NCBI GenBank assembly: GCA_012845835.1
Contig: JABAKD010000010.1
Coordinates: 12,558,473 to 12,622,472, forward strand
Direction of reading: 5' to 3'
Origin: Undaria pinnatifida
Taxonomy: Eukaryota; Sar; Phaeophyceae; Laminariales; Alariaceae
Length of the DNA stretch: 64,000 nucleotides
The position numbers and the translations under genes are program-made. The notes beneath the pieces were generated by a model, which was not told the origin of the DNA, searched no databases, and worked only from the letters and a program-made list of their open reading frames with translations. Numbering within the stretch: the first letter of the stretch is position 1; each line of letters opens with the position of its first letter. Shown here one piece after another: positions 4,521 to 62,858 of this stretch.

Positions 4521-4790
4521 TGTTAGGTTATTGGGTGGGGACACAGAGTGCCCCTTGCAGGTCTGTCAATTGAGCAGGTCCTCGGAGAGGACTCACTTTG
4601 TTTGCCTTCGTAGAGCCGTAGCTTTATTCGATTCCACCAGAGCCCCGGATGACTTCTGAGATCGGAGGCAAGTGCCTCCGATCTATTTCCTAACTTTCCC
4701 GGATATTAAACGCCAACCTTATCATACGAAACCCATCCAAAGGATCTTAAATTCGGATAATTACAGGCATTTCGAGGCCGTATCTTAACA
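4521..4790 (-). repeat. LTR of gypsy copy A (minus strand)
   Basis: 270 bp with TGTTAG..TTAACA ends, clearly homologous to the 268-bp LTRs of copy B but with many substitutions. The internal hairpin formed by two GGAGGC/GCCTCC arms is kept. On its high-coordinate side comes AGGGTGGG (complement), the polypurine tract that precedes a 3' LTR. So it serves as the 3' LTR of the minus-strand fragment. Confidence 0.9.
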
Positions 4791-6586
4791 CTAGCCCACC
4801 CTGATGAGTCACATATGCAGAAAAATGGGAGATTCGGGGAAACTCCGGCTCTACGAAGTAGACCATGAGTCGAAGATGCGGCTCCTCAAAACCCACTCCC
4901 ACACCTCTAACGGTCTGGCTATGGACCATAAAGACGCGAAGAAAAACAGTTGAAAGAAACGCAGACCTTAAAACAAGGCAAACGTCACCCACCAAAAACC
5001 TGTCGCGTGCCGCCGGTATGGCGGGGGGGGGGGGAAGAAAAGGCTCTAGAAACTGCCGCATACCGCCGGTGTGGCGGGTGGCGCAGGAAAGGCTCTACGG
5101 CAAACCAACCACAGAAAAGGCACTATGGCGAGGCGAGCCCTCGTCGATATGGAGGGGAACACAGGCGCTAACACAAGGGAGAAGTCATGCGAAAAATGTC
5201 CCCCGGGCCATCAGCATGGCGGGGGGTTAGATGAGGAAACGACAAATACCCGGGATGGAAGGTGGCAACACCTACAGCCCCGCTAGGGGGGGAAGTGATT
5301 AGCCGAAAAAACAAAGTAGAACAAATACAACACACAAAAGATAAAATATGACACACAGACCCGTACGTCGCCCTGTACCACGTTACGCGCGAACAGGGTA
5401 CCCTGGTCGCCCCCCGGCTCTGAGCTGAGGAGGGCGTCGGCAGGGCGAAATTGAACAACGACGAAAAAGCAACAGCCCTGCGCCTCAGATAGCGGCGTTT
5501 TACCCGAACCCTGGCCCCGCACTGAGCAGGGGGTTCGGCAGGACAAAAAAAAAAATGATGGGAAGAACCGCCCCAAAACCCGACGAAGACTTTCAGGACA
5601 CTACGAACAACCCAAATACAAAGACTCAAACCTCATAAAATCCAAAAATTGAAGAACTATCGAGGAGCGGTGGCGGCTTGAAAGTCAACTGGCCACGATC
5701 GCGCCTCGAGATTCATCTACGTTACGTTGGATTCCACGAGGTAACGCACTGACGATGTGAACTTGCAGGCACCAAGAGCCTCGTACAACTCCCGTCGAAG
5801 TCGTGTAGCGCGCCGCCGAAAGATGAAGTTTAATCGGTCCGGGGTCGTCCAGAAAGCGGACTAGGTATACCTTGTCCTCGGTGGTGCTCGCGCTTTTTTT
5901 TCCAAGCCACCATAACCCATCGTCTCCCTTGTCTCAAAAGTGGACACTATTAGGAAGTACTGTGTCGTGGTAGCGACGGAGCCAATCGGCAAGGGGAGCA
6001 CAGGCGTAGCCCTGCGCTAGGAAACGTTCCCCGTTGTTGCGGGAGAGCTCGCGCTGTGCCGCCCCGATCTGCATTCGGCGGTAGAGGCGGTTGGTTTGGC
6101 GGAGAGGTGGAGATCCATTTGTCGCTCCCAGGAAGGTTCGGAGAGTCCCGTCCAATGCGTCTTGTATAGCACCGCGATGACGCCACCTCGCCCCCGTACC
6201 GACTGATGACCAGTGATCTGCTCCACCTCCAGCCGTTGTAGGGGAGTACGTCGTCTTGAGTGACGTGGTACGGCGGGGACTTCTTGGGAAAATTGTAGAG
6301 CACGTACTGCGTCAGCCCCGCCGGTAGATATTTGGGCATGTCCCCGCTGTCGTGGGGGTTGGCACAGGGTTTGCAGCGCTCGATGGCCACATGCCGACGA
6401 GCGTCCCAATCGGGCAGGTCGGAAGGGAGATCCAAATAGAGGAGGTTGCTCCCGAGCGGCGAACCGTCCAGGGTCTCGGCGGCGGAGCAGGGACCGACGT
6501 CCAGGACCTTGTACGGGCCCGTCCAGTTAAGCGCGAGTTTGGCCTTGAGTACCTTGGCGTCGGCGTTCGCCTTCAAACCCTGGCGG
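4791..6586 (-). mobile_element. Ty3/gypsy copy A, minus-strand 3' fragment
   Basis: This is the reverse complement of copy B positions about 22,133-23,942: 3' untranslated region, integrase C-terminal half and the LTR. It ends at a TGGCGG hexamer (6,581-6,586) where the sequence switches, without a spacer, into a plus-strand fragment of the same family. The segment between the chromodomain and the downstream Arg-rich part carries a deletion relative to copy B. Confidence 0.85.
5934..6576 (-). pseudogene. Integrase C-terminal fragment (GPY and chromodomain), gypsy copy A
   Basis: The open frame matches the C-terminal third of the copy B integrase. It begins at the segment before the GPY module (LNWTGPYKVL) and runs into the sequence ahead of the chromodomain, then loses frame at the chromodomain itself and continues with shifted residues. 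The catalytic core is missing because the fragment starts downstream of it. With no promoter, no N-terminus and a broken frame, it cannot encode a functional integrase. Confidence 0.8.
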
Positions 6587-7024
6587 TCGATTTGAGGTGT
6601 GGGAAGGCCAACACTAAAACACCGAGATCTTTTGCGAGGCTCGATCCGGTGTTTGCTCGCGATAACAGCGGGCGCTCTGTCCTTTTTTCCATCAAGGAGG
6701 AGTCGACAAGATTAGCTACCTCGTCTCCATTCTCCAAGAGGCATAACGGAAAAGAACCTCCTCGGGTAAAAACATTATTGCCACTTCCCCGAGCCCCGCT
6801 CCAGAATACGCCCACAGGGTCTACGGCCCCTGCTTCGTCTTTTAACACGCTAACCCACGTGTTTCAGGCTGCGTTTGCCCCAGTGGCACAGAAAGAAAAT
6901 CCGACACTGCGCGATGGGCCAGTGGTGACGCCACGGCCTCCAGCCTGATTAGCTGGACGCTATTCCCCTACCTTTTGCAAGTGGTCAAACGGACTAATAC
7001 CCCACTAATACCTTAACATCATCA

Positions 7025-7330
7025 TGTCGTCGCCTACGCAAACGCATCGGCCGAGGCGTTCTCAACTTTGACTCCGGTGCTGGCGACAGGGAGAAGCAAA
7101 ACGCCGTGTTATCTGGCACCTACGCCAAATTCACGCAGAATCCAGCCATAAAAAAAATCACCTTTTGAGCTCTGACAACAAGCGCCTGGCTGAATCCAGC
7201 CCTCTGGACCCAGTGTGGGGCATTGGTCGCCGGGAGGATGGTCCCAGCGCCAACAACCCATGCAAGGGGAGAGAAAAACTGGCCCGGTGAGGCGTTTTCT
7301 GCCGTTCGCGAAGTTATTCGCGACAATGAG
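7025..7330 (+). pseudogene. NADAR-domain C-terminal remnant, gypsy copy A
   Basis: Corresponds to the second half of the NADAR-like domain of copy B. The conserved KFTQNP region is followed, after a frame change in an eight-A run, by the LAESSPL..WGIG block. After another frame change come GEKN and a C-terminal helix with FSAVR. The N-terminal half with the EQYMM motif was removed by the 54-bp replacement, so no active protein is expected. Confidence 0.7.
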
Positions 7331-7764
7331 ACCGGGTCGGCGCACCCGGCCTCCCCTAGTCGGTTTCGCACCTGCACTGCGAATGCAAGAACCAAAACAT
7401 CTCGTCCGCGCCGCGGCCGGGCCGTTAACAGCGGCCAGCGCTCGCAAAGCTTCCCCTTCCGACCTATTTCTCGGGCGCGTTGGCCAACTAAAAGCCGTGG
7501 AGTTTTGAAGATAGCTTCTGGCGTCGGCCCTGACCTTGTGCTGTCAGAACACGGCCCCTGTTTCGTCGAGGGTACTGTGATGGTGGACGACGTTTCGCTC
7601 TCTATGAAAATCGTGTATACCAGTCGAGCAACGCTCGAGTCGGAGAGCCACTGGACTCCTCTAGATTTGGGAACGGCAGCATTGTTTGGGCTCCCAAACG
7701 CCTCCGAGGGTACTTTGGGGAACAAAGTTCCGCACATCCTCCGGCCACAAGACACAGGAGAGCA

Positions 7765-8605
7765 TTGGCAAAGTGGGGACCCTCAATGCACGAGTCCAGC
7801 GGTAGCTTGAATTCGTCACCGCGTTCGATTGCAAACTCGAGTACCGCAAAGGCAGCGCCAACGGCATCGCCGATTTTTCTGGCCCGTTTTCCAGAGCCTG
7901 CTACGGAGTACGACCGCAGTGGCTTGACAAACTTTAAGCCCGTAGGATTGACAAGCCCCAACCCCGTTGGAGATAGCGGTATCTACCTCCTACGGACCCG
8001 CGGGCTGCGCGCTCCCTCCTCGCCGATCCCAGGGGTCGGTTTGGGTGGACTCGCGCCCCTCGCCGAAAGCACTGTCTTGGGTGGGCTCGTGCCCCACATG
8101 ACAGCACTGTTTTTTGGGTGGACTCGAACCCCTCGCCGAAAGCACTGTCTTGGTTGGGCTCGTGCCCCGCACTAAACATGCTGCCTTGGGTGGGCTCCCT
8201 CTCACCCCTACCGCATTTCACGCTTTTCGCACACACGAGCCATGTATAGGGATTAACGGCCTTTCTGCTTCCCCGGGGAGATTCGTCGCTCGTGTTTCTG
8301 CCTCCGTCGCCACTACCGAAGGCTGTACAGGCCGCGGGTCGATTTCGCCTGCCGCTAGCACCGTTTTCGCTTCGGTTTTTGCCATACCCATCGGCGGCGG
8401 CACGGGCTCCGCAGAAGCCCTGGCTGCAGCGACGCCCATCGCACAGCCGACTTATCTATCCCGGAGTTCTATACAGGAGACGGCCCCCGCCGCGACCATC
8501 GGTTCGACTGTGTCCATGTCTGCCTTGCTTGGCACTCCAGCTCCTCCGTCGTTGACGACGCGCCGACGAACAGCGACAGCAACGGGAAATGCACCCCCGC
8601 TGTAG
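7765..8605 (+). pseudogene. RNase H tail and repeat linker, gypsy copy A
   Basis: Around 7,790-7,880 one frame encodes the typical gypsy RNase H end (LEYRKGSANGIADF), as in copy B. It is followed by the Ser/Thr/Pro-rich linker with 36-bp repeats (about 8,040-8,185) that encode GGL-P-E-S-T-units. One unit carries a T-run expansion that shifts the frame. No reverse transcriptase precedes it. Confidence 0.6.
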
Positions 8606-8775
8606 ATTACGGATTCGGGCCCGACGGGGCTCCTCGGCCATCTTCCAGACGACTTACAACCCCGCCGCGAGTCCCATGGCCGCGGCCGACCCCGTCGACA
8701 GCCGCGACTCATGCTCCTGCCGCTCCTCCTGACCCCGCGGTACTGATCTCATCCGACCGCGACCATGCAGAGCCT

Positions 8776-10577
8776 ATGGAAACTCCTCTCCTACGGCTCA
8801 CGCCTTTCTCTGGTGAAAGGCCAACTGCGCCTACAAGGTCGGACGCCCTCGGCGACGCTGCTGAATTGCCGTTCGCTGATCCCGTCGCGCGTTATTCGCA
8901 TGCCCATTGGAAGCGAGAGCAGCACGCTGAGCTGACGTGCCACGCCACGATGCGTTACATCTCTATCAGCCGGCCGTCGGTCCTGCCGCCCGACTTTTTG
9001 GCGTGCTACCTCTCGCTCAAGCGTCCATCCCTCTCAGACATCAAAGAGCTGGCGGGTAAGGGTCGACTACATACAACCGACGACGACATTGTCCTACTCG
9101 TCCGTAACCCGGCACTGCCGCCAACAAGGTCTGACAAACCCAACTCTGTGGGGCGAGCTGCTTGCTTGCTAAACGACGAGCCAGTTCGCATCTACGTTTC
9201 CCTGCTCATGCGCCCTTGGATCATGCAAGCTTGTCACTCGACGGCATCTTGTCACCTTGGCACCACCCGCACGTTGCGCATGCTGGAGCGGTTTTATTGG
9301 CGGATTGGCATGAATGTGTGCACCCGGTGGTGGCTTCGCCACTGCTTGAAGCGCCAAGTGCGGAAAAACCCACGGCTGACTGTCCGCTGGCCCATCATCT
9401 CAATGCCTCTACCGGAAGGTTCAGGTGTCGCCGTCAGTGTTGACTACTTCTGCTCCTTCTGGTCACACCACGAGGCAACATCTGTATCCTGCTGTTCACC
9501 GATCGCTTCAGTCGTCGGGCCGACATGTTCCCGGTCACTGCCGCTGAGTTCACCGCGGAGGGTACAGCCAATATCCTGGTGAACCAATACATCCCCTTGT
9601 GGGGGTGCCCGCGCACCATACTCTCGGTCAACGGACTGCAGTTCTGCTCCAAGCTTTTACGAGCTGTATATCAGCTGTTGGGTGTGCACAAGCTTGCTAC
9701 TAGCTCCTATCATCCCAACTGTATCGGCGGCGTTGGGCGGGTAAACCACACTATAGCCCAAATGCTGGCAATGGTCGTCAACGAGCGACAAGACGATTGG
9801 GACTTGCATCTGCCCCACCTCGAATTCGCTTACAACAAGTCAGTCAGCGCGGCGACGGGTATAGCGCCCAACGAGGTTCACATGGGCAGACTCCCACGGC
9901 TCCTCCTGACGGTTTTCGACCGCACTGGCGTCGTGGGACACCAGAGTCTAGCCCACGACCACCTGGCCTGTTGCGACTTGGTCACCGACCGGCAACAGCG
10001 CGCGAACGACATTGTCCAAGCACACCACGCCCTCACCGTTTCTCGTGTTAACCGCAGAAACTCCGCCCTCGCCGACGCGCTGCGTCCAGCACCTAACTTA
10101 GCTACGGGTGGTTGGGCATGGGTGTATAATTTTGCCTCTACCATCCGCTAGGGTGTGAAGGCGAACACCGACGCCAAGGTACTCAAGGCCAACCTCGCGC
10201 TTAACTGGACGGGCCCGTACAAGATCCTGGCAGTCGGTCCCTGCTCCGCCGCCGAAACCTCGGACGGTTCGCCGCTCGGGAGCAACCTCCTCTATTTGGA
10301 TCTCCCTTCCGACCTGCCCGGTTCGGACGCTCGTCTGCGAGTGACCATCGAGCGCTGCAAACCCTGCGCCACCCCCCACGACAGCTGGGACATGCCCAAA
10401 TATCTACCGGCGGGGCTGACGCAGTACGTGCTCAACAATTTTTCCAAGAAATCCCCACCGTATCACGTCACCCGAGACGACGTTTCGACCCCCCTACAAC
10501 GGCTGGATGTAGAGCAGATCACCGGTCATCAGTCGGTACGGGGGCGAGGTGGCGTCATCGCGGTGCTATACAAGACG
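8776..10577 (+). pseudogene. Integrase remnant, gypsy copy A
   Basis: Homologue of the copy B integrase. The N-terminal linker is better preserved than in copy B. The zinc-binding HHCC motif has lost a cysteine (CLKC reads CLKR). The core is frameshifted right after the first catalytic aspartate (VDYF). The second aspartate is Val (SVNGLQF) and the catalytic glutamate is Gly (GGVGRVNH). A TAG stop interrupts the frame near 10,149, before the GPY module. All three catalytic regions are damaged, so this is a dead copy. Confidence 0.85.
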
Positions 10578-10904
10578 TACATTCATCCGCGCCTCACGCT
10601 CAGTTCTATCCGTGGCTAGTGGGATTAATACTAGAGCTTCTCCAATACAAGTGAATGATCAACGTGAAATCTGCCTAGTAGAGAAATCTGAAAGAGGGTG
10701 GCCTGTGTTGTAAACAGCCCCCTAATATTACAATACCTCGACGCGGACACTTTTTATAGACAAAAGCCGCGAGGGGGAACGTTGAAATTCCCAAACGTCC
10801 ATCGCAACCTCGTTTTTAGACCCCCAAAGCAGTTTTCTCAGCGTACATCAATATGTTTTGCGAATATGCACAACAGGCCACCCCCCCCCAACCACTGTAA
10901 ACTA
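10578..10904. other. Flank of the satellite; short dispersed repeat
   Basis: No gene seen. The stretch about 10,645-10,725 (CTGCCTAGTAGAGA..GGGTGGCCTGTGT..AACAGCCC) is similar to 50,490-50,575, so at least part is a dispersed repeat. Confidence 0.4.
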
Positions 10905-11665
10905 ATATGTATTTGAAGACACCACTCTGAAACAACACGATAACGAAGTCTGGAACATCACCCAAAACATACACGTATAGCAACAACCACGCGAACACAA
11001 AAGAATACGTGTTCAAAAACACCACTCTGAAACAACACGATAACGAAGCCTAGAACATCAACTAAAACATACACGTGTAGCAACATCCACGCGGACAAAA
11101 ATAATATGTATTTGAGAACACCATTCTAAAACAACACGATAACGAAGTCTAGAACATCACCCAAAACATACATGTATAGCAACAACCACGCGAACACAAA
11201 ATAATATGTGTTAGAAAACACCACTCTGAAACAACACGATAACGAAGCCTAGAACATCAACTAAAACATACACGTGTAGCAACATTCACGCGGACACAAA
11301 CAATATGTATTTGAGAACACCACCCTGAAACAACACGATAACGAAGTCGAGAACATCACCCAAAACATACACGTGTAGCAACAACCACGCGGACACAAAA
11401 TAATACGTGTTCAAAAATATAACTCTGAAACAACACGATAACGAAGCCTAGAACATCAACTAAAACATACACGTGTAGCAACATTCACGCGGACACAAAT
11501 AATAAGTATTTGAGAACACCATTCTGAAACAACACGATAACGAAGTCTAGAACATCACCCAAAACATACACGTGTAGCAACAACCACGCGGACACAAAAT
11601 ATTATGTATTCGAAAACACCACTCTGAAACAACACGTTCGCGAAGTCTAGAACATCAACCAAGAA
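10905..11665 (+). repeat. Satellite of ~100-bp units in a ~199-bp dimer
   Basis: Eight tandem units, each with AACAACACGATAACGAAG. The motif starts near 10,931, 11,031, 11,130, 11,230, 11,329, 11,429, 11,528 and 11,628. Units alternate between two subtypes (GTCTAGAACATCACCC versus GCCTAGAACATCAACT), giving a higher-order repeat of about 199 bp. No coding frame is maintained. Confidence 0.9.
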
Positions 11666-12179: not shown

Positions 12180-12260
12180 TGTTAAGATACGGCCTCGAAA
12201 GGCCTGTAGGTATCCGAATTTGAGATCATTTGGATGGGTTTCGTATGATGAGGTTGGCGG

Positions 12261-12268
12261 TTTATATT
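12261..12268 (+). promoter_or_regulatory. TATA-like box in the 5' LTR
   Basis: TTTATATT in the GC-richer LTR, about 20 bp before the hairpin and about 75 bp before AATAAA. The position suits the promoter of the genomic RNA. The same site lies in the 3' LTR (about 24,024-24,031). Inferred from position and motif only. Confidence 0.45.
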
Positions 12269-12285
12269 CGGGGAAGTTAGGAATT

Positions 12286-12311
12286 AGATCGGAGGCACGC
12301 GCCTCCGATCT
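12286..12311 (+). promoter_or_regulatory. Perfect 11-bp stem-loop inside the LTR
   Basis: AGATCGGAGGC and GCCTCCGATCT flank an ACGC loop. The stem is kept intact in the old LTR at 4,521-4,790 with a different loop (AAGT). That suggests it is selected as RNA or DNA structure. Confidence 0.7.
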
Positions 12312-12449
12312 CAGAAGCTATCCCGGGCTCTGGTGGAAACGAATAAAGCTACATCTCTACGAAGGAACGAAAGTGAGTACTCCGAGGACCTACCCAATTG
12401 GCAGACCTGCAGGGGGCACTCTGTGTCCCCCACCTATTAATTTAACAAG

Positions 12450-12466
12450 TGGCGTCGTCGGCAGGA
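12450..12466 (+). promoter_or_regulatory. Primer binding site (tRNA-Ser-like)
   Basis: TGGCGTCGTCGGCAGGA two bases after the LTR. The complement ends in CCA and looks like the T-stem/acceptor 3' end of a tRNA-Ser. The exact 17-base complement is present in this window at 36,013-36,029. Confidence 0.7.
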
Positions 12467-12473
12467 CGAATTC

Positions 12474-14118
12474 TTACACTGTGCTTCCACCCCTACACTA
12501 CACCTAGGGTAAATGCTGCCCGTTTTGGTGCGATGAGTGTCAGCGTGTTGGGCGATCTTACACTGTGCTTCCACCCCTACACTACACCTAGGGTAAATGC
12601 TGCCCGTTTTGGTGCGACGAGTGTCAGCGTGTTGGGCGATCTTTCACTGTGCTCCCCCCCTCCACTACACCTAGGGTAAATGCTGCCCGTTTCGGTGCGA
12701 TGAGTGTCAGCGTGTTGGGCGATCTTACACTGTGCTTCCACCCCTACACTACACCTAGGGTAAATGCTGCCCGTTTTGGTGCGATGAGGGTCAGCGTGTT
12801 GGGCGATCTTTCACTGTGTTCCCCCCCCTCCACTACACCTAGGGTAAATGCTGCCCGTTTTGGTGCGATGAGTGTCAGCGTGTTGGGCGATCTTACACTG
12901 TGCTTCCACCCCTACACTACACCTAGGGTAAATGCTGCCCGTTTTGGTGCGATGAGTGTCAGCGTGTTGGGCGATCTTACACTGTGCTTCCACCCCTACA
13001 CTACACCTAGGGTAAATGCTGCCCGTTTTGGTGCGATGAGTGTCAGCGTGTTGGGCGATCTTACACTGTGCTTCCACCCCTACACTACACCTAGGGTAAA
13101 TGCTGCCCGTTTTGGTGCGACGAGTGTCAGCGTGTTGGGCGATCTTTCACTGTGCTCCCCCCCCTACACTACACCTAGGGTAAATGCTGCCCGTTTCGGT
13201 GCGATGAGTGTCAGCGTGTTGGGCGATCTTACACTGTGCTTCCACCCCTACACTACACCTAGGGTAAATGCTGCCCGTTTTAGTGCGATGAGTGTCAGCG
13301 TGTTGGGCGATCTTACACTGTGCTTCCACCCCTACACTACACCTAGGGTAAATGCTGCCCGTTTTGGTGCGAGGAGTGTCAGCGTGTTGGGCGATCTTTC
13401 ACTGTGCTCCCCCCCCTACACTACACCTAGGGTAAATGCTGCCCGTTTCGGTGCGATGAGTGTCAGCGTGTTGGGCGATCTTTCACTGTGTTCCCCCCCT
13501 ACACTACACCTAGGGTAAATGCTGCCCGTTTTGGTGCGATGAGTGTCAGCGTGTTGGGCGATCTTACACTGTGCTTCCACCCCTACACTACACCTAGGGT
13601 AAATGCTGCCCGTTTTGGTGCGATGAGTGTCAGCGTGTTGGGCGATCTTACACTGTGCTTCCACCCCTACACTACACCTAGGGTAAATGCTGCCCGTTTT
13701 GGTGCGATGAGTGTCAGCGTGTTGGGCGATCTTACACTGTGCTCCCCCCCCTACACTACACCTAGGGTAAATGCTGCCCGTTTTGGTGCGATGAGTGTCA
13801 GCGTGTTGGGCGATCTTTCACTGTGCTTCCACCCCTACTCTACACCTAGGGTAAATGCTGCCTGTTTTGGTGCGACGAGTGTCAGCGTGTTGGGTGACCT
13901 TTCACTGTGCTCCCCTCCTACACTACACCTAGGGTAAATGCTGCCCGTTTCGGTGCGATGAGTGTCAGCGTGTTGGGCGATCTTACACTGTGCTTCCCCC
14001 CCTACACTACACCTAGGGTAAATGCTGCCTGTTTTGGTGCGATGAGCGTCGGCGTGTTGGGCGAACCCTTTTTATGATAACCCCTACACTACACCTAGGG
14101 TAAATGCTGCCCGTTTTG
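12474..14118 (+). repeat. 84-bp minisatellite in the leader, about 20 copies
   Basis: Units start with a CACCTAGGGTAAATGC anchor at 12,501, 12,585, 12,668, 12,752 and so on to about 14,092. The period is 84 bp (28 codons). Most copies differ by a few substitutions, mainly CTTCCACCCC versus CTCCCCCCCC. Since 84 is a multiple of three, the frame stays open on both strands for long stretches, including a 289-residue frame at 12,649-13,518. There is no start context or domain. I read it as a leader satellite, not a gene. Degenerate relatives continue to about 14,300. Confidence 0.95.
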
Positions 14119-14577
14119 GTCCGATGAGCGTGGGCGTTTTGGGCGACGCTCTCCTGTGCTACCTCCCCCAGCCTAGGTCGAATGATGCCTGTTTAAGTGC
14201 GATGGCTGCAGACGTACCTTTACTGTGTTGCACCCCCTGCACTGCGGTTGGGGTCAGTGCTGCCCAGTTTTGGCTCCTTGTGCTGCGGTTCGTGCGGGCG
14301 TTACCCATATACCCTACGGTCAGACTGGGCGCTGCTCTTATGTTGCGGTTGTGATGATTGGTACCTTGTTACTGCTGTACTCCTCTTATACGGCTAGTTG
14401 ACGTGGCTGCTACCATCACTGAGGCTGGATGGAGTCAAGGCCCATATTGTTGCTGTTTGCTGAAACACAGATATACCGCTACTTGGAGCAGGAACACCAC
14501 AACAATTTATCTGTCTCCATAGCTTCTTCACGCGTCGTTCCTATCCCCCCCCCCCCCCTTCACTGCACCTAGGCACC

Positions 14578-16480
14578 ATGTCCACCAGTGACGATGGGGG
14601 CTACTCGGGGCTGGCTGAGGTCTTCCACGCACCCCAACCTGGATGCCCACGAGACAGGGAGAGCTCGCTCGAGATGCCGCGACTCGAGACGGGGGGAACC
14701 ATCGGTGGCGGGTTCCGGTGACGAGACAGAAGACGGAGCACCATACCTCCACCCGTTCCCACCAACCAAGCGGGTCGATTCGCTGGTTCGCGCTGAGAAG
14801 GAGACGGACCAACCCCCACCGGACTCGGGGGCGTCTCGACGCCAGCTCTCGCCAGCCCCGGGGGAGCGCTACCAGCTGCCCCCCCCCCGCGCTCGACAGG
14901 GCACCACCGCCGCCACCTGGGCTCTCCGCGCTCGACAGAGCGCCACCCCCAGAGCTCCCGGGACCGGGGCACCCATGCCGCCCCCTTGGTCTTGGCATAC
15001 GCGGCGGCGCGGGCCCAGCGGGCGCTCGACGACGTCAACCAGACGATAGCACGCCGACGTCGGTTTGACGAAGATATCGAACAGGCGAAGACCGCTGCGC
15101 GGGAGTCGTCCCTGGTTGCGAAGAGGGCGCAACAAGCCCTCGCTCAATCAGTTGCGTCGTCTGTGGCGGGAGCTAACGCGGCCCTCTTGCCTTCGTCGCG
15201 CCCGCAGGGTGTCGCATCCCAGCGACCACGACCCGGGAACGACGCCTTCTTCAAGGGCATCGTTGCGTGCATGGCGTCTGCACCGCGGGTAGTCTTCTCC
15301 TCAGCGTTGGCGACCCGCGGTGGTGGAAACGGCCTGCGCCCTCCTCCCGTCAGAGAGGCCGGCGTCGCGGCAAGCGGACGTCCTCAATGGAAGCGGCCTG
15401 GGCTCGCGTGGATTGTACGCCCTATGCTAGACAGACGAGAGCCGCCCCGACCCTTGCCCTCGTCAAGGCCCTGCTGATAGCCCACGACGAGGACCCCGAC
15501 CCTGTCTTTTGGCCGGACCCCGGAGAAAGAGTTGGCAGAACGAAACCGGGGAAAATGTCGCGACAGTCGCGACCGCGGGGACCGCAACCGTGGGGGTGGC
15601 AGCAAAAATGGTGGGGGTGGCGACCACCACCGCCGCCGCGGGGGTGACAGCGCATCGGGTGCTGGTGTGCCTGAGGGCGCCGCCGAGGGGGCAATTTCGG
15701 TCCAACAACCGGGGCAGTTGGCCGCAGCTCTGGCAGAGGAATGGCGCGAGAGGGCGTTCAGCGTGGGACAGCTCGTCAACCTCCTCCCGCTCGTCTTGGT
15801 CCTCGAGCACGGACCACACCGAGGTGGTCGTGGTAGCAGGCAAAAAGTGCAAAAACCATGGCAGGAGGAGCATCTGGGCCTGAGGCTTTCACCCTCCTGT
15901 TGCGTCTGCTGATCACGCACTTCGACGGGGTTGATACGGAGGAGGGCTACACTACGTTGCATACTTTTGGAATGTGTAACGGCATGCCTTTTTCTGATTT
16001 CAGTTGGGAGTTTCGCGTACTCATGCCGACCGCTACGGGAAGTGAGCGTGTTTTGTCTCCGGGGACGGATGTGGTGTTGGAGGTGGTTCGGGTGGCGGCG
16101 AATGAGCAATTTCCGGCTCTCCTGCCTGCGTTGTACCCTGGTTCGAAGGCAACGAACCCGCGGCCGTACATCTCGTTGGATGCTATGTGGCGGTCTTTTA
16201 GTGACTAAGAAGACACCTGCCGTCAACGGCGAAACATTTTTTCTCTCCCTGTTTCTTCGACGGGAGCGCGGTCATGCGCCCTGTCGGGGCCCCGGCCCGC
16301 CGATCATGGGCGCGGCCAGGGCCGAGTGCCGTCCCAGTCGCTTTCGTGGCAGACGGGATCGAGCCATCATTCAACTGTCATGCCCATCGATGATTCATCT
16401 GACCCTTGGCTTGACCACACATCGAACTGCTGGCCACTAGAAGAGCATCATTATGCAGAAGGTTTCGCCGTTAAGGCCTC
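14578..16480 (+). pseudogene. gag-like region, frame-broken
   Basis: In the position expected for gag, the region splits into several overlapping frames. The clearest are 14,986-15,477, with an Ala/Arg/Gln-rich helix likely to form a coiled coil (residues about 10-70), and 15,858-16,208, a 116-residue compact frame (TLLLRLLITHFDG..WRSFSD) that could be a capsid fragment. A 12-C run at 14,549-14,560 and G/C-rich repeats make frame errors likely. The assignment rests mainly on position ahead of the zinc knuckle, since I recognise no capsid family motif. Confidence 0.5.
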
Positions 16481-16486
16481 GTTTAA

Positions 16487-16678
16487 GACAGTCGACCCCT
16501 TTGGAGCGGCCTCCTTTCACCTCGCGCTGATGCCCTCCGAGAAAACCGGGGGCTTTGCCTCAACTGCCACGAAGACAACCATTCCTTCAAGCATTGTAGG
16601 CATCCTTATTTTACTGCGAGTGGCTGCTTGAACCCTGAACTAGGCCAACTTGGCGACGATGACGCACACCGACGTTGA
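16487..16678 (+). CDS. Gag nucleocapsid fragment with CCHC zinc knuckle
   Basis: Open frame from just after a TAA at 16,484-16,486 to a TGA at 16,676-16,678. Codons 16,556-16,597 encode CLNCHEDNHSFKHC, a perfect C-x2-C-x4-H-x4-C retroviral-type zinc knuckle. In Gag proteins this module binds genomic RNA for packaging. The frame has no start codon of its own and is probably the C-terminal part of a longer Gag whose upstream frame is broken or shifted. Confidence 0.75.
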   Translation, partial: DSRPLWSGLLSPRADALRENRGLCLNCHEDNHSFKHCRHPYFTASGCLNPELGQLGDDDAHRR

Positions 16679-17960
16679 CAAACACGCATGGTCTGCTACC
16701 GCCGAGACGACAAATCCTCTCGCCCAAACAACCACAAGAAAAATCGTCGCCATCTTTCAGGATCAGGGCCAGGTAAACTGTTACGACGATACCACATACA
16801 CGTCGGATCACCATGGTATCCTGCGCTCGCCCGCCTCTTCTGCCCCCGCTCCCGCTTCTCGAATGCGCTTTGGAGCAGCCCACAACCCGGGCGAAAATAA
16901 ATGTGCGCGCCAACCTGGCACATTCCGTAACGGCAATTGACAGCTCGACGGCGGTACGGCACCGTCGACAACACTGTCGGGGGGTACCTATTTTGGTTTC
17001 AGGAAATGCTCGTGTTCTGTTCTAGCCTGTCCAGAAACGCAGCACAGATTGCCTCTGTCAAGAGCCTACGGGCTCCTACGCCGTCTGCGGACGATTCTCA
17101 CGGCGTAGTACCGGCGGCGGAAACTAGCGCTTCAAGCGTGGTTTCCTCCAGCCAGGTAATTTTTTTTCTTTTCTTTCTTTTTCGACGGCGAGAACGCGCG
17201 CTTTCAGCGACGTTCCCCTCGGTCATGGTCTGAGTTCGGCAACGGGAACCGCGCTTCCAGCGCCGTTTCCCTCAGCCGCGGCATAAACTCAGCAATGGGG
17301 GTACGCGCTCCAAACGCCGCCCCCATCAACCATGGCACGGGAGCCTGCGCTTTGCGCGCTCCCCCTCTAGGTACGCGCCGCGCAACAATATAGCTGCAGC
17401 GACGGCGCGTCGCCTTTTTTACGCGTATGTGTGCATCCCCCCCTCTCCCTGACCAGGCGGTGGCGGTCGGTTTGAGGTGTGGGACGGTCGACCCTCGAAA
17501 CACTTTTTCTGACCACGAGGTGGCGGTCGGTTTGAGGTGTGGGAAGGCCAACACTAAAACACCGAGATCTTTTGCGAGGCTCGATCCGGTGTTTGCTCGC
17601 GATAAGAGCGGGCGCTCTGTCCTTTTTTCCGTCAAGGAGGAGTCGACAAGATTAGCTACCTCGTCTCCCTTCTCCAAGAGACATAACGGAAGAGAGCCTC
17701 CTCGGGTAAAAATATTATTGCCTTGCCCGAGCCCCGCTCCAGAAGACGCCCACAGGGTTTACGGACCCTGCTTCGTCTTTTAACACGCTAACCCACGTGT
17801 TTCAGGCTACGTCTGCCCCAGTGGCACAGGAAGAAGATCCGACACTGCGCGACGGGCCAGTGGTGACTCCACGGCCTCCAGCCTGATCAGCTGGACGCTA
17901 TTCCCGTAAATTTACGGAAGAATCGCGCCTCTCGTCAAGCAGAAACAGCTCAGAGCCCCT
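16679..17960 (+). other. Copy B interior without recognised domain
   Basis: Where protease and reverse transcriptase would be expected, I find neither a D-T/S-G protease motif nor a YxDD-type RT motif in any frame. A 60-bp tandem duplication (TGGCGGTCGGTTTGAGGTGT at 17,461 and 17,521) occurs here. The second copy is the breakpoint used in the rearranged copy A. Confidence 0.55.
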
Positions 17961-17999
17961 GCCCCTTTGGGCGCAGTTAGAGCAGTTTTCTTGCGATTA

Positions 18000-18800
18000 T
18001 ACGCCAAAAAGCGAAGAGGCCACGAAGCGAGAAACCGTGGGTTCGGACTCGCGTCGTGCTCCCGAGGCCTGGTGTTCCTGAGAGGGACACTACAGGCCCA
18101 AAGAGCCGAGGACTGGTGTTCCCAGACGGGGACATTGCAGACCCAAATGCCCAAAGAGGCTACCGACGGGTTGGCACCGTCGGTGTTGGACTCTTTTTCG
18201 GGTGTAATGAGGGCGGCTTCTTACGAGTTTCCGCCAGCGAGTGAGGAGGACCCGAGGCGAGAAACCCCAGGTTCGGACTCGCATGTTGCTCCCGAGGCCT
18301 AGTGCCCCCGCAAGGGGACATTACAGACCAAAGAGCCGAGGACTGGTGTTCCCAGACGGGGACATTGCAGACCCAAATGCCGAACGAGGCTACCGACGGG
18401 TTGGCACCGTCGGTGTTGGACTCGTTTTCGGGTGCAATGAGGGCGGCTTCTTACGAGTTTCCGCCAGCGAGTGAGGAGGACCCGAGGCGAGAAACCCCAG
18501 GTTCGGACTCGCATGTTGCTCCTGAGGCCTGGTGCTCCCGCAAGGGGACATTACACGCCCAAGTAGCCGAGGACTGGTGTTCCCAAAAGGGGACATTGCA
18601 GACCCACAAATGCCGAACGAGGCTACCGACGGGTTGGCACCGTCGGTTTTTGCCATTTTTCGGGCGCAGTTAGAGCGGATTCTCGCGCTTTTCCGCCAAC
18701 GAGCGAAGAAAGACCCGAGGCGAGATACCACGGGTTCGGATTCGCGTCGTGCTCCCGAGGCCTGGTGTTCCTGGAGGGGGACATTGCAGGCCCAAATTTC
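18000..18800 (+). repeat. Four ~230-bp tandem repeats
   Basis: Blocks beginning near 18,021, 18,251, 18,481 and 18,714 share a GCGAGAAACC..GTTCGGACTCGC opening, a GAGGCCTGGTG core, repeated GGGGACATT(G/A)CAGACC and a CCGACGGGTTGGCACCGTCGG palindromic segment. They lie directly upstream of the NADAR frame and are absent from copy A because of its deletion. Confidence 0.85.
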
Positions 18801-18842
18801 AACACGGATTTTGACCCTTCTCTCGAATACTCCACAGCCAAA

Positions 18843-19305
18843 GTGGTGTTATTCTGGCAGCCCCCATCCTATTTTCCACCGTGGTCCCCTTCGTCGTTTG
18901 CCGTGGACGAGGTACCATATTCTTGCGCGGAGCAGTACATGATGGCCGAAAAGACGAAGTTTTTGCAAGACCATCGAGCAGTGGGGCTCATTATGTCGTC
19001 GCCTCGTCCAAGCATACGCAAACGCATCGGTCGAGGCGTGCGCAACTTTGACTCCGCTGTTGGGGACAGGGAGAAGCAAAACGCCGTGTCGCCTGGCACC
19101 TACGCCAAATTCACGCAGAATCCAGCCATAAAAAAATCACCTCTTGAGCTCTGACAACAAGCTTCTGGCTGAATCCAGCCCTCTGAACCCAGTGTGGGGC
19201 ATTGGCCTCCGGGAGGATGGTCCCAGGGCCAACAACCCATGCCAGGGGAGAGGAAAAACTTGCTCGGTGAGGCACTTTCTGCCGTTCGCGCAGCTATTTG
19301 CGACA
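18843..19305 (+). pseudogene. NADAR (YbiA-like, DUF1768) domain carried by the retrotransposon
   Basis: The first frame (18,765-19,154, 129 residues) gives VVLFW, then a segment aligning with the family's SNF..P-F-V-D-G region. Next come CAEQYMMAEK (family E-x-Y-x-x-x-x-K), a D-H..SSP..RKRIGR segment and KFTQNP. Two further blocks follow in shifted frames: LLAESSPL..VWGIG, then KNLLGEALSAVR. Order and spacing match the whole NADAR domain of about 150 residues, as in E. coli YbiA. Known family members hydrolyse N-glycosidic bonds in riboflavin-pathway intermediates or act on ADP-ribose-type ligands. The breaks fall in A-runs (about 19,131 and 19,249). This may be decay, sequencing error or ribosomal slippage. 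Copy A shows both frame changes, with a different first A-run length. Confidence 0.75.
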
Positions 19306-19474
19306 ATGAGACCGGGTCGGCGCACCCGGCCTCCCCTAGTCGGTTCCGCACCTGCACTGCGAGTGCAAGAACCAAGAAATCTCGTCCGCGCCGCAACCGG
19401 ACCGTTCACAGCGGCCAGCGCTCGCAAAGCTTCCCCTTCGGCGTTTCCGACCTATTTCTCGGGCGCGTTGGCCA

Positions 19475-19705
19475 ATGAAAAGCCGTGAAGTTGTGGAGAT
19501 AGCTTCTAGCGTCGGCCCTGACCTTGCGATGTCAGAACACTGCCCCTGTTTCGTCGAGGGTACTGTGACGCTGGACGACGTTTTGTTCACTATGAAAATC
19601 GCGTTTATCAGTCGAGCAACGCTCGACTCGGAGAGGCACTGGACTCCTATAGATTTGGGGACCGGCAGCATTGCTTGGGTTCCCAAACACCTCCGAGGAT
19701 ACTGA
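19475..19705 (+). CDS. Unrecognised 76-residue frame between NADAR and RNase H tail
   Basis: Also present in copy A (in part of 7,223-7,810) with substitutions that mostly keep hydrophobic positions, such as PCFVEGTV..DDV. The position would suit a protease, but I see no D-T/S-G catalytic motif, so no function is assigned. Confidence 0.3.
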   Translation: MKSREVVEIASSVGPDLAMSEHCPCFVEGTVTLDDVLFTMKIAFISRATLDSERHWTPIDLGTGSIAWVPKHLRGY

Positions 19706-19753
19706 GGGGAACAAAGTTCCGCATATCCTCCGGCCACAATACATAGGAGAGCA

Positions 19754-20593
19754 TTGGCAAAGTGGGGACCCTCAATGCACGAGTCCAGCGGTAGCTTGAA
19801 TTCGTCACCGCGTTCGATTGCAAACTCGAGTACCGCAAAGGCAGCGCCAACGGCATCGCCGATTTTTCTGGCCCGTTTTCCAGAGCCTGCTACGGAGTAC
19901 GACCGCAGTGGCTTGACAAACTTTAAGCCCGTAGGATTGACAAGCCCCAACCCCGTTGGAGATAGCGGTATCTACCTCCTACGGACCCGCGGGCTGCGCG
20001 CTCCCCCCTCGCCGATCCCAGGAGTCGGTTCGGGTGGACTCGCGCCCCTCGCCAAAAGCACTGTCTTGGGTGGGCTCGTGCCCCACACCGAAAGCACTGC
20101 TTTGGGTGGACTCGAACCCCTCGCCGAAAGCACTGTCTTGGGTGGGCTCGTGCCCCGCACTGAACATGCTGCCTTGGGTGGGCTCCCTCTCACCTCTACC
20201 GCGTTTCACGATTTTCGCACACACGAGCCACGTATAAGGATTGACGGCCTTTCTGTTTCCCCGGGGAGATTCGTCGCTCGTGTTTCTGCCTCCGTCGCCA
20301 CTACCGAAGGCTGTACCGGCCGCGGGTCGATTTCACCTGCCGCCGACACTGTTTTCGCTTCGGTCTTTGCCATACCCATCGAGGGCGGCACGGGCTCCGC
20401 AGAAGCCCTGGCTGAAGCGACGCCCATCGCACAGCCGACTTATCTATCCCGGAGTTCTTTACAGGAGACGGCCCCCGCCGCGAGCACCGGTTCGACTGTG
20501 TCCGTCTCCGCCATGCTTGGCACTCCAGCCCCTCCGTCGTCGACAACGCGCCGACGAACAGCGATAACAACGGGTAATGCACCCCCGCTGTAG
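19754..20593 (+). CDS. Ser/Thr/Pro-rich linker frame with 36-bp repeats, overlapping an RNase H tail
   Basis: A 279-residue open frame, rich in Ala, Ser, Thr and Pro. At 20,030-20,190 it has four 12-residue units of the type GGLVP-TESTAL. In the +1 frame, about 19,790-19,880 encodes FDCKLEYRKGSANGIADF, the recognisable end of a gypsy RNase H domain (normally ..YRpGk.N..AD.LSR). The true polyprotein therefore switches frame here, or the long frame is fortuitous. No RNase H catalytic core or RT is seen upstream. Confidence 0.45.
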   Translation: MAKWGPSMHESSGSLNSSPRSIANSSTAKAAPTASPIFLARFPEPATEYDRSGLTNFKPVGLTSPNPVGDSGIYLLRTRGLRAPPSPIPGVGSGGLAPLAKSTVLGGLVPHTESTALGGLEPLAESTVLGGLVPRTEHAALGGLPLTSTAFHDFRTHEPRIRIDGLSVSPGRFVARVSASVATTEGCTGRGSISPAADTVFASVFAIPIEGGTGSAEALAEATPIAQPTYLSRSSLQETAPAASTGSTVSVSAMLGTPAPPSSTTRRRTAITTGNAPPL

Positions 20594-21035
20594 ATTATGG
20601 ATTCGGGCCTGGCGGGGCCCCTCGGCCATCTTCCAGACGAGGTACAACCCCGCCGCGAGTCCCACGGCCGCGGCCGACCCCGTCGACCGCCGCGACCCCT
20701 GCTCTTGCCGACTCGCCGGTCCGCACGGTGCCACTACCGTCCGACCGCGACCATGCAGAGCCTATATGAGAACTCCTCTCTTACGGCTCACGCCTTCTCC
20801 TGGTGGCACGCCGACCCCATATACAAGGTCGGACGCCCTTGGCAACGCTGCTGAATTGCGTTTCGCTGATCCGTCGCGCGTTATTCACATGACGATTGGA
20901 AGCGAGAGCAGCACACTGAGCCGACGTGCCACGCCATGATGCGTTACGTTTCTATCGGCCGGCCATCGGTCCTGCCGCCCGACTTTTTGGCGTGCTACCT
21001 CTCGCACAAGCGTCCCTCCCTCTCAGACCGAGGAG

Positions 21036-23084
21036 TTGGCGGATAAGGGTCGACTACATACAACCGACGACGACATCGTCCTACTCGTCCGTAACCCGAC
21101 ACTGCCGCCAACAAGCTCTGACAAACCGAACTCTGTGGGGCGAGCTGCTTGCTTGCTAAACGACGAGCCAGTTCGCATCTACGTTCCCCTGCTCATGCGC
21201 CCTTGGATCATGCAAGCTTGCCACTCGACGGCCTCCTGCCACCTTGGCACCACGCGCACGTTGCGCATGCTGGAGCGTTTTTATTGGTGGATTGGCATGA
21301 GTGTGTGTACCCGGTGGTGGCTTCGCCACTGCTTGAAGTGCCAAGCGCGACAAACCCCACGGCTGACTGTCCGCTGGCCCATCATCACAATGCCTCTGCC
21401 GGAAGGTCCAGGTATCGCCGTCAGTGTTGACTACTTCGGCCCCCTTCCGGTCACACCGCGAGGCAACACCTACATCCTGCTGTTCACCGATCGCTTCAGT
21501 CGTCGGGCCGACATGTTCCCCGTCACTGCCGCTGAGTTCACCGCGGAAGGTACAGCCAATATCTTGGTGAACCAATACATCCCCTTGTGGGGGTGCCCGC
21601 GCACCATACTCTCGGACAACGGACTGCAGTTCTGCTCCAAGCTTTCACAAGCTGTATATCAGCTGTTAGGTGTACACAAGCTTGCTACAAGCTCCTACCA
21701 TCCCAACAGTAACGGGGGCGTTGAGCGGGTAAATCACACTATGGCACAAATGCTGGCTATGGTCGTCAACGAGCGACAAGACGACTGGGACTCGCATCTG
21801 CCCCACGTCGAATTCGCTTACAACAACTCTGTCAGCGCGGCGACGGGTTTGGCGCCCAACGAGGTCCACATGGGCAGACTCCCACGGCTTCCCCTGACGA
21901 TTTTCGACCGCAAAGGTGTCGTGGGACACCAGAGTCTCGCCCGTGACCACCTGGCCTATTGCGATTTGGCCACCGACCGGCAAAAGCGCGCGAACGACAT
22001 TGTCCGCGCACACCACGCCCTCACCGTTTCCCGTGTTAACCGCAGAAACTCCGCCCTCGCCGACGCGCTGCGTCCAGCACCTAACTTCACTGTGGGTGGT
22101 TGGGCATGGGTATACAATTCTGCCTCTACCATCCGCCAGGGTGTGAAAGCGAATACCGACGCCAAGGTACTCAAGGCCAAACTCGCGCTTAACTGGACGG
22201 GCCCATACAAGGTCCTGGCCGTCGGTCCCTGCTCCGCCGCCGAGACCCCGGACGGCTCGCCGCTCGGGAGCAACCTCCTTTATTTGGATCTCCCTTCCGA
22301 CCTGCCTGGTTCGGACGCTCGTCGGCGTGTGGCTATTGAGCGCTGCAAACCCTGTGCCAACCCCCACGACAGCGGGGACATGCCCAAATACCTACCGGCG
22401 GGGCTGACACAGTATGTGCTCAACAAGTTTTCCAAGAAGTCCCCGCCGTACCACGTCACTCAAGACGACGTTTCGACTCCCCTCCAACGGCTGGAGGTGG
22501 AGCAGATCACTGGTCATCAGTCGGTACGGGGGCGAGGTGGCGTCATCGCGGTGCTATACAAGACGCATTGGGCGGGACTCTCCGAACCGTCCTGGGAGCG
22601 GGAAATGGACCTTCACCTCTCCCGCTCCCACATCTTGCGTTATTGGGCCGGAACCCCGGACCAGCACCGCCAAACCAACCGCCTTTACCGCCGAATGCGG
22701 ATCGGGGCGGCACAGCGTGAGCTCTCCCGCAACAACGGGGAACGTTTCCTAGCGCCGGGCTACGCCTGTGTTTCCCGCACCGATTGGCTCCGTCGCTACC
22801 ACGACACCGTACTTCCTAAGGGAGCCCACTTTTGGTACAAGGGAGACGATGGTTTATGGTGGCTAGGAAAAATCAGCGCGAGCACTACCGAGGACAAGGT
22901 ATACCTGGTCCGCTTTCTGGACGACCCGGGACCGATTAAACTCCCTCTTCCCCCGGCGCGCTACACGACTTCAACGGGAGCCGTACGAGGCTCTTGGTGC
23001 TTGCAAGTTCACATCGCCAGTGCGTTTCCTCGGGGAATCCAACGTAACGTAGACGAATCTCGAGGCGCGGCCGTGGCCAGTTGA
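21036..23084 (+). CDS. Ty3/gypsy integrase with chromodomain and Tudor/PWWP-like C-terminus
   Basis: 682 open codons. Zinc-binding HHCC: H63, H69, C99, C102. Catalytic core: D132 (VDYFGP), D194 (SDNGLQF), E230 (GGVERVNH), with exactly 35 residues between the second D and E. GPY/F module at about 389-391 (LNWTGPYKVL). Chromodomain at about 486-540 (ITGHQSVRGRGG..THWAGLSEPSW). An extra C-terminal module at about 598-645 (FWYKGDDGLWWLGKI..VYLVRFLDD) looks like a Tudor/PWWP-type barrel. Integrase inserts cDNA into the chromosome, and chromodomains steer it to modified histones. The true N-terminus lies upstream: copy A has an intact linker where copy B has a short deletion near 21,028, so the first Met here may not be the real start. 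Confidence 0.9.
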   Translation: MADKGRLHTTDDDIVLLVRNPTLPPTSSDKPNSVGRAACLLNDEPVRIYVPLLMRPWIMQACHSTASCHLGTTRTLRMLERFYWWIGMSVCTRWWLRHCLKCQARQTPRLTVRWPIITMPLPEGPGIAVSVDYFGPLPVTPRGNTYILLFTDRFSRRADMFPVTAAEFTAEGTANILVNQYIPLWGCPRTILSDNGLQFCSKLSQAVYQLLGVHKLATSSYHPNSNGGVERVNHTMAQMLAMVVNERQDDWDSHLPHVEFAYNNSVSAATGLAPNEVHMGRLPRLPLTIFDRKGVVGHQSLARDHLAYCDLATDRQKRANDIVRAHHALTVSRVNRRNSALADALRPAPNFTVGGWAWVYNSASTIRQGVKANTDAKVLKAKLALNWTGPYKVLAVGPCSAAETPDGSPLGSNLLYLDLPSDLPGSDARRRVAIERCKPCANPHDSGDMPKYLPAGLTQYVLNKFSKKSPPYHVTQDDVSTPLQRLEVEQITGHQSVRGRGGVIAVLYKTHWAGLSEPSWEREMDLHLSRSHILRYWAGTPDQHRQTNRLYRRMRIGAAQRELSRNNGERFLAPGYACVSRTDWLRRYHDTVLPKGAHFWYKGDDGLWWLGKISASTTEDKVYLVRFLDDPGPIKLPLPPARYTTSTGAVRGSWCLQVHIASAFPRGIQRNVDESRGAAVAS

Positions 23085-23930
23085 CTTCCAAGCCACCACC
23101 GCTTCTCGATAGTTCTTCATTTATTGAGGTATGAGTTTTGCGTCTTTGTCTTTGGGTCGTTCGTAGTGTCCTGAGGGTCTTCATCGAGTTTTGGGGCGGT
23201 TCTTTCCATTTTTTTTCTTTTCTGTCCTGCCGAACCCCCTACTCAGTGCCGGGTCAGGGTTCGAGTGAAACGCCGCTATCTGAGGCGCAGGGCTGTCGTC
23301 TTTTTGTCATAGTTCAAATTCGCCCTGCCAACGCCCTCCTCAGCCCAGAGCCGGGGGGCGACCAGTGTACGGGTCTGTGTGTCTTTTTGTTTTGTGTGTT
23401 GTATTTGTTCTGCTTTGTTTTTTTTTTTCGTCTAAACACTTCCTCCCCTAGCGGGGCTGTAGGTGTTGACACCTTCCATCCCGGGTATTCGTCGCTTCCC
23501 CGTCTAACCCCCCCGCCTTGCCGATGGCCCGCGGGAGGTTTTTCGCATGACGTCTCCCTTGTGTTAGCGCCTGTGTCCCCCTCCATATCGACGAGGGCTC
23601 GCCTCGCCATAGTACCTTTTCTGTGGTTGGTTTACCGTAGAGCCTTTCCTGCCCCCCCCCGCCACACCGGCGGCATGCGGCAGGTTCTAGAGCCTTTTCT
23701 GCCCCCCCCGCCTCACCGGCGGCATGCGGCAGGTTTTTGATGGGTGACTATTGCCTTGCTGTAGGGTCTGCTTTTCTTTCTACTGCTTTTCTTCGCGTGT
23801 TCCTGGCTCCGTAGCCAGACGGTTAGAGGTGTGGGAGTGGGTTTTGAGGAGCCGCATCTTCGACTCATGGTCTAGTTCGTAGAACCGGAGTTTCCCCGAA
23901 TCTCCCATATTTCTGCATATGCGACTCATC
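23085..23930 (+). other. 3' untranslated region of copy B
   Basis: About 850 bp between the integrase stop and the polypurine tract. T-rich in parts, with two GCCTTTCCTGCCCCCCCC..CACCGGCGGCATGCGGCAGG units (about 23,640-23,730). Homologous to 4,800-5,900 in copy A and, more distantly, to 28,690-29,130 (both minus strand). No coding function is supported. Confidence 0.7.
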
Positions 23931-23942
23931 AGGGTGGGCTAG
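23931..23942 (+). promoter_or_regulatory. Polypurine tract (weak)
   Basis: AGGGTGGGCTAG directly before the 3' LTR. The same sequence adjoins the old LTR at 4,521-4,790. Interrupted by CT, but in the correct position for plus-strand priming. Confidence 0.55.
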
Positions 23943-24210
23943 TGTTAAGATACGGCCTCGAAAGGCCTGTAGGTATCCGAATTTGAGATCATTTGGATGG
24001 GTTTCGTATGATGAGGTTGGCGGTTTATATTCGGGGAAGTTAGGAATTAGATCGGAGGCACGCGCCTCCGATCTCAGAAGCTATCCCGGGCTCTGGTGGA
24101 AACGAATAAAGCTACATCTCTACGAAGGAACGAAAGTGAGTACTCCGAGGACCTACCCAATTGGCAGACCTGCAGGGGGCACTCTGTGTCCCCCACCTAT
24201 TAATTTAACA
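23943..24210 (+). repeat. 3' LTR, copy B
   Basis: 268 bp. I find no difference from the 5' LTR at 12,180-12,447. It is followed by CCAC, the right target duplication. Confidence 0.95.
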
Positions 24211-30348: not shown

Positions 30349-31180
30349 ATGAAACAGGAGATAGAGATCCTGCGAAGGACAGTGGAGGAGCAGAAGCTGC
30401 GTGCCGAGATGGAGGCGCTGCAAGCTGAGGTATCAAGGGGGGGCCGGTGGGGGGAGGAGCGGAGAAGCAAAAGCGAGGGATTTTACATTGTCTCTTGCTG
30501 TGCCAACATCTGGGCTGGCAACCCAACCTGGCACGTCGCAACTTTCACTGTCTCGTCCGAATTTGCCTCAACTAAAACCCTCCAAATTTGATAACATGGA
30601 GGTACACTTCGGAATGTGGCGTAGCAAGTTTCAGGCATTTTTGTCGTCGGTTCGCTGTCTATACGTCCTCAAGGCAACCGACAATCCGGTCATGGTAGGT
30701 GACATGAATGTGTCACAGGAGGAATTGGAGCAGAAACACACTCAGAAGAAGAAAATGAATGCAAGATTGGTATATGGTCTGTTAATGGACTCCATGACTG
30801 GATATGACATTGCGGAGTTCCGCATGCAGCAAGCCAAGTCGCCAAGTGGCGCTTGGAGAGAGTTGGAAATTACTACATGCCGCAAACCCTAGCTGCAACT
30901 CACAGACAAAATAGAGAGATTGAGGCTATCCACATGGAAGAGGGAGGGGACCTCCTTGTGTTCCTCGGTAGAATTGACAAGGCATTGACAAGGCGGCCGA
31001 TGAATTGGCCGTGCTCTGTTGTGGGAAGAGCGTAGAATAGGTGAACGGACACATCGTAAACAACCTTTCATCACTGTACACTATACAGAGCAAATCACTT
31101 ATCTCCCGCCCTTCAATCCCTCGTTCCAAAATCGACGAGATTATTCGCCATGCATATGTAAATGATAAGCTTTAACGGGA
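30349..31180 (+). pseudogene. copia gag, frame-broken
   Basis: Starts with a coiled-coil-like N-terminus (MKQEIEILRRTVEEQKLRAE). The classic copia gag segment FDNMEVHFGMWRSKFQAFL follows in a second frame near 30,590, with helical segments ending in YYMPQTLAATHRQNREIEAI. Stops near 31,030 and 31,170 interrupt the last helices. Gag builds the virus-like particle. Assigned by the WKxxFQAFL-type motif and by position. Confidence 0.7.
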
Positions 31181-31181
31181 G

Positions 31182-31991
31182 ATGGTGACCAAGGCATTGG
31201 GAGTAAAAGGTGGGGTAGATCAGCATGCCTTGTACGCCGGAGCTGTTCAGCCTGCCGGCGGAGGAGGCACGGGTTCAAGTAGTCGAGGTAAAAACAAGAG
31301 AGGGGTGAGACACAAGGGTGTGCGGCAGCAGCAGCAGCTATTCCAGCAGCAGTTCAGTCCAGCAGCAGCAGCAGCAGCAGCAGAACAGCACGGTCACCCA
31401 AAGCATAATCGTTGGGACAACTCTGGCCCAAACCCATTTGGGACGGGGGGACAGGCTCCTGCAATGGGTTGGGTACCTACCGACCCACCGCCAGGGGTTA
31501 TGCCGCCGATGCCCCCGCTGCCGGTGGGAAATCCGACGGGTTGGCGTCCCCCACCGAATCCTGAACCACTAGGACATGAGGGGGTATGTTACAGATACCA
31601 CCGGCCGAGTCACTACGTAGCAGAGTGCACGATTTCTCCGGCACATATGAACGTAGGGGTCCCTTTCACAGCTCAACAGCACCCCCACCCCATGCACTAT
31701 GGTGGTGGCTGGGTACAAGAGTCACCCCCCGGCAGTGATGGGTACACTTCCGCACCTCAGCCCCTCGCGAACAACTCCCACGAACAGAAAAATGACGGCA
31801 GTTGTGCGCCTACGTCCAACCCACATATTATTGCCGCACAGTTTACACGAAAAGGCAAGCATGGCCGTAGCGGTATTTTTCGGGGGAATAGGAGAGAGCA
31901 GTGGGTAGCTGATTCGGGGACTACCTTTAATGAAACTGGTAACTCCGTTGGCATGGTAGATGGTAAACCTAGTAGGAGTATTTTGGTATAA
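31182..31991 (+). pseudogene. copia gag C-terminus with mutated zinc knuckle, and protease N-terminus
   Basis: 269 codons. Residues 1-150 are Gln-, Gly- and Pro-rich, with a CAG-repeat stretch (31,324-31,385). CYRYHRPSHYVAEC (near residue 136-149) is a CCHC knuckle whose second Cys has become Tyr. QWVADSGTTFNET (near 240) is the copia aspartic protease active-site motif with D-S-G. The frame ends at a TAA before the rest of the protease, which resumes in another frame at 32,003. Confidence 0.8.

Positions 31992-62827: not shown

Positions 62828-62858
<31 letters not shown>

Follow-up and report, generated by a model that had tools for sequence, protein, structure and literature searches.

NADAR domains inside the Pol polyprotein of Gypsy retrotransposons are known from Ectocarpus sp. 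7, for example in Gypsy-12_Ec32 (PMC12477816). NADAR proteins take ADP-ribose off guanosine in DNA (PMC11543638) and are reported to be the one hydrolase family known to do this on RNA (PMC11833690). Here, we analyzed a window of 64,000 nucleotides from Undaria pinnatifida, in which a 12.0-kb Ty3/gypsy element (element B, 12180-24210) carries the relic of a YbiA-type NADAR, together with its relatives elsewhere in the genome, extending the report of NADAR in Gypsy elements, until now from Ectocarpus, to the kelp Undaria. A first-pass annotation of the window had predicted the domain, assigned it to the processing of N-glycosidic or ADP-ribose-type metabolites and known of no established role for it in Ty3/gypsy elements; the Ectocarpus publication has overtaken the last statement, and the activity better supported for the family is de-ADP-ribosylation of guanosine in DNA or RNA, not NAD metabolism in general (PMC11543638, PMC11833690).

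The genome searched comprised 511,146,479 bases in 68 contigs, and 150 NADAR matches were scored of 1454 first-look candidates, the window copy lying outside these 150. All 150 passed the PF08719 cut-off, which speaks against a one-off capture, and these matches, the long terminal repeat (LTR) element around the window copy and a shared junction confirm the earlier proposal that the NADAR belongs to the element and not to a neighboring host gene. Open frames of at least 2300 amino acids (aa) surround the NADAR in 20 of the 150 copies, with recurrent lengths of 2473 aa (9 copies) and 2371 aa (5 copies). The full-length order, assembled in pieces, is a gag-like open reading frame (ORF) followed by a long frame that encodes, in turn, NADAR, a protease-like part, RVT_1, RNase H, Integrase_H2C2 and rve, which is the Ty3/gypsy order of protease, reverse transcriptase (RT), RNase H and integrase, with the protease recognized by motif only. 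The protease-like part of the full-length relative has no Pfam match, and we take its LLDTG motif to mark the protease.

These full-length elements provide evidence that the NADAR is selectively kept with its active site intact. The NADAR of the full-length relative scored 177.3 bits for PF08719, and among 57 open NADAR domains the equivalents of E43, K50 and E125 are kept in 54, 55 and 55, respectively. The equivalents of E43, K50, K75, R79, W89, E125 and D130 all fall within the 46 columns identical across four divergent representatives, and dN/dS (the ratio of nonsynonymous to synonymous substitution rates) was 0.16-0.18 for one copy against two others (L002 versus L067 and L087). A structural model of P0003, a NADAR homologue distinct from the window copy and with S at the W89 equivalent, reached a pLDDT (predicted local confidence) of at least 90 in 145 of 260 residues and matches 8bau and 2b3w, as predicted for a YbiA fold.

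The NADAR of element B is, by contrast with that of the full-length elements, dead. An hmmscan of the translated window recovered the N-terminal part (E=2e-19, 70.9 bits, profile 2-109; cut-off 35.1), bearing out the predicted domain, whereas the C-terminal part alone lies in a different frame and under the cut-off (E=0.029, 15.1 bits, profile 117-148), and tblastn with an intact relative as query placed two stops in this copy. The conserved motifs thus do occur in family order, as first described, but not in a single frame. The letters of the catalytic E and K (E43, K50) and of the YbiA-type E125 are retained across different frames, with G at the W89 equivalent and N at the D130 equivalent. 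Because of frame-changing indels that its kin share, no enzyme can come from the window copy, which therefore cannot itself modify host NAD/ADP-ribose signaling, contrary to what had been suggested for it.

Element B itself is a young non-autonomous Ty3/gypsy element that has lost its RT and most of its protease and RNase H. It has the LTR pair with TG...CA ends and the target-site duplication of Ty3/gypsy elements, and the identity of its two LTRs together with the 4-bp duplication CCAC flanking both outer sides indicates a recent insertion. Near 19598, element B lacks ~2.1 kb that full-length copies have in pol, RT included: the protease stub (19478-19612) runs into a stretch matching residues 291-370 of the RT/RNase H query (19598-19836), and residues 1-284 of that query gave window matches of E 3 or worse, which is chance level and indicates that RT is absent from copy B. 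Comparing the window with the full-length relative in single pieces, we found 95% identity in the leader, 96% from the pre-integrase region to the 3′ LTR and ~69-84% in the middle, so that element B, more distant in its middle than at both ends, looks mosaic. Recent recombination with full-length partners could be the source of its open integrase.

The same deletion defines a family. A junction query (19500-20900, 1401 bases) yielded 40 copies scored of 1304 first-look candidates, the window's own counted, and all 40 match the full query at 96-100%; this RT-less family is a non-autonomous derivative that was mobile recently. For 20 of the 40 copies (L031-L050, with L031 the window), we aligned the NADAR region with that of an intact relative. 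Near codon 150, all 20 loci have lost 1-2 bases, as has copy A, a second fragment in the window, and an A-run insertion of variable length at codon 109 is shared by 19/20 loci and copy A, its length being a multiple of three in 2 of the 19. From these lesions we infer that the NADAR was probably already failing in the founder of the derivative. Integrase matches are stop-free over the part seen in 16/20 loci and split near residue 70 in 14/20.

The NADARs of the 2473-aa and 2371-aa frames are 47% identical, so that at least two subtypes are present, and their RTs share 78% identity across 370 aa. The RT of the 2473-aa subtype is 69% identical to that of P0126 and 64% to that of Ectocarpus P0127 (327 aa); P0127 and P0128, both from Ectocarpus, combine NADAR, RVT_1 and RNase H, with NADAR identities of 58% and 56%. 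Searching proteins with the 2473-aa subtype as query yielded 1222 homologues, and among the 120 matches listed were contigs at up to 91%, Nannocystis at 58-61%, and short brown-algal proteins from Pylaiella (60%), Ectocarpus (61% and 59%) and Scytosiphon (58%), in which NADAR is the only Pfam domain and which we take as putative standalone genes. The 2371-aa subtype gave 295 homologues, and among the 120 listed, 8 rows at 71-92% are followed by matches of at most 54%. A protein search also returned P0131 (896 aa), in which NADAR is joined in an unusual fusion to PF10021 and PF03747, presumably also families of the ADP-ribose hydrolase type. In the tree, the Gypsy NADAR of Ectocarpus and the short NADARs of algae form a group with the 2473-aa subtype (99/89), and the 2371-aa subtype is placed elsewhere (98/92); a single common origin of the element NADARs was not rejected in testing. 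The Ectocarpus authors proposed horizontal transfer of NADAR from bacteria (PMC12477816), and entry via a NADAR gene of an alga would be another possible route.

From the domain, its position, the open frames, the conserved active site, the low dN/dS, the fold of the homologue and the lesions shared by the derivative, we infer the following explanation, to which we give about an even chance. Full-length partners would mobilize the RT-less element in trans. In these partners, the NADAR precedes the protease within the Pol polyprotein, a location that would place it to act on element RNA or complementary DNA (cDNA). A host transferase would put ADP-ribose on guanosines of that RNA or cDNA, and the element NADAR, as a putative guanosine-ADP-ribose hydrolase, would clean them and so keep reverse transcription unblocked. 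The Ectocarpus authors suggested that NADAR processes RNA intermediates (PMC12477816), and removal of guanosine ADP-ribose is a sharper form of that idea. If true, a eukaryotic retroelement carries an enzyme that erases ADP-ribosylation of nucleic acid, and its host would then be expected to place these marks on the RNA or cDNA of retroelements. A bolder version, which we consider unlikely, is counter-defense: guanosines in the RNA or cDNA of retroelements are ADP-ribosylated by the host, Pol carries the eraser, the 2371-aa NADAR was re-acquired from a bacterial-like source as an arms race predicts, and RT-less, eraser-dead parasites use the enzyme of their partners.

Several observations weigh against this explanation, chief among them that genome searches found no guanosine-modifying host enzyme. 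DarT (PF14487) had no match in the whole genome, searched in six frames and exon by exon, and the host writer candidates are one short PARP match and a KptA/Tpt1-like match in three pieces; the phosphate-end ADP-ribose that KptA/Tpt1 produces is reportedly not reversed by NADARs, which are inactive on ADP-ribose at phosphate ends (PMC11833690). The NADAR-dead derivative nevertheless spread, which shows that an element can do without the enzyme in cis. Of the 57 open copies, 5 are missing the catalytic E or K, one of them (L027) with a frame of 2365 aa, and some copy pairs have dN/dS of 0.5-0.9.

Of the other explanations, it is unlikely that the NADAR acts on host targets, altering host ADP-ribose signaling in the element's favor and leaving element nucleic acid untouched. 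The conserved active site and K75 equivalent would suit such a role, as would a position directly preceding the protease-like part, from which the domain could be cut free; however, the substrate described for NADARs is guanosine-ADP-ribose in nucleic acid (PMC11543638, PMC11833690), and fusion to Pol would favor a location in the particle. Rather less credible is a structural or ADP-ribose-binding module with incidental catalysis, which the copies lacking a catalytic E or K would allow and the invariance of the active-site positions in the four divergent representatives argues against. That the NADAR is the passenger of an old capture, decaying everywhere with the window copy typical, is highly improbable, because, although all 20 of the RT-less copies aligned, the window's own among them, are broken, the long-frame copies and their dN/dS largely contradict it, and Ectocarpus too has NADAR-RT fusions (PMC12477816).

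The features of the window are listed in Table 1. The gag-like ORF has no Pfam match and is named by position alone. In the leader of element B, repeats at 83-84-bp spacing (12472-14196; family D1, 18 members) are found in the full-length copy too.

Table 1 Coordinates of retroelement features in the window
Feature	Position	Strand	Basis or comparison
5′ LTR of element B	12180..12447	+	268 bp, TGTTAAG...TTTAACA; 268/268 identical to 23943-24210
3′ LTR of element B	23943..24210	+	LTR-pair comparison
Leader of element B, repeats at ~84-bp spacing	12472..14697	+	95% to 2083-4305 of L051 (full-length relative)
gag-like ORF, broken	14464..15909	+	37%, with stops, to ORF preceding pol in full-length copy
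Imperfect direct repeats ~230 bp apart, just upstream of NADAR	17988..18779	+	Families D9, D10, D15
NADAR (YbiA-type) relic, frame-broken	18809..19305	+	PF08719 pieces; tblastn, 2 stops; indels
Protease N-terminal stub fused near 19598 to RNase H stub	19478..19836	+	Comparison with full-length pol
Integrase ORF, open (H2C2 + rve)	20943..23081	+	Pfam; 95.8% to integrase piece of full-length copy
Copy A, fragment of same RT-less kind	6581..10577	+	blastn of B against rest of window
Inverted 3′ end of related copy with LTR	4521..6586	-	LTR 4521-4790, 87% to LTR of B

Copies A and B had both been credited with a NADAR, which holds for B as a relic and fails for the N-terminal part of A: copy A lacks the equivalent of B 17906-19011, and its NADAR begins only at about codon 64, without the catalytic E/K block. 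The inverted 3′ end adjoins copy A head to head, and the pair (4521-10577) looks like an older rearranged insertion. Upstream of element B and outside its LTR, eight repeat units at 99-100-bp spacing occupy 10899-11662. ORFs at 30365-31991 resemble by eye the gag of another (Copia-like) retroelement, with no Pfam match above cut-off, and long simple repeats rich in proline or glycine at 549-1401 and 62210-63805 account for long ORFs that occur on both strands or in more than one frame.

Non-autonomous LTR derivatives are known from plants as large retrotransposon derivatives (LARDs) and terminal-repeat retrotransposons in miniature (TRIMs). The Undaria derivative resembles them in its LTRs, target duplication, internal deletion and many copies, and differs in retaining an open integrase ORF together with gag and NADAR relics. 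In contrast to the NADAR/YbiA hydrolases of Phytophthora nicotianae (8bau) and Escherichia coli (YbiA, 2b3w), the Undaria NADAR is fused into a retroelement polyprotein, and unlike in the DarT-NADAR toxin-antitoxin system, no adjacent DarT was found, PF14487 having no match in the genome. A YbiA-type NADAR also occurs in ORF1 of a Tx1 long interspersed nuclear element of Crassostrea gigas (PMC12477816), a retroelement of the non-LTR kind that we liken to ours by description only. The closest known system is the NADAR-Gypsy lineage of Ectocarpus, with which the NADAR-RT fusion is shared. The C-terminal chromodomain reported on its integrase (PMC12477816) went undetected in Undaria, where the integrase piece from a single full-length copy had no Pfam match for it up to E 0.1, a search that a divergent chromodomain may escape. 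Searches of the open-licence literature brought up one relevant paper, PMC12477816, and no earlier description of an RT-less, NADAR-dead derivative. Against the Ectocarpus lineage, what is new is a family in another host, the kelp Undaria, with at least two divergent NADAR subtypes, kinship to short brown-algal NADAR proteins and a many-copy RT-less derivative whose NADAR is dead, so that full-length elements with an intact NADAR can be compared, as they occur in nature, with derivatives that moved despite a dead one.
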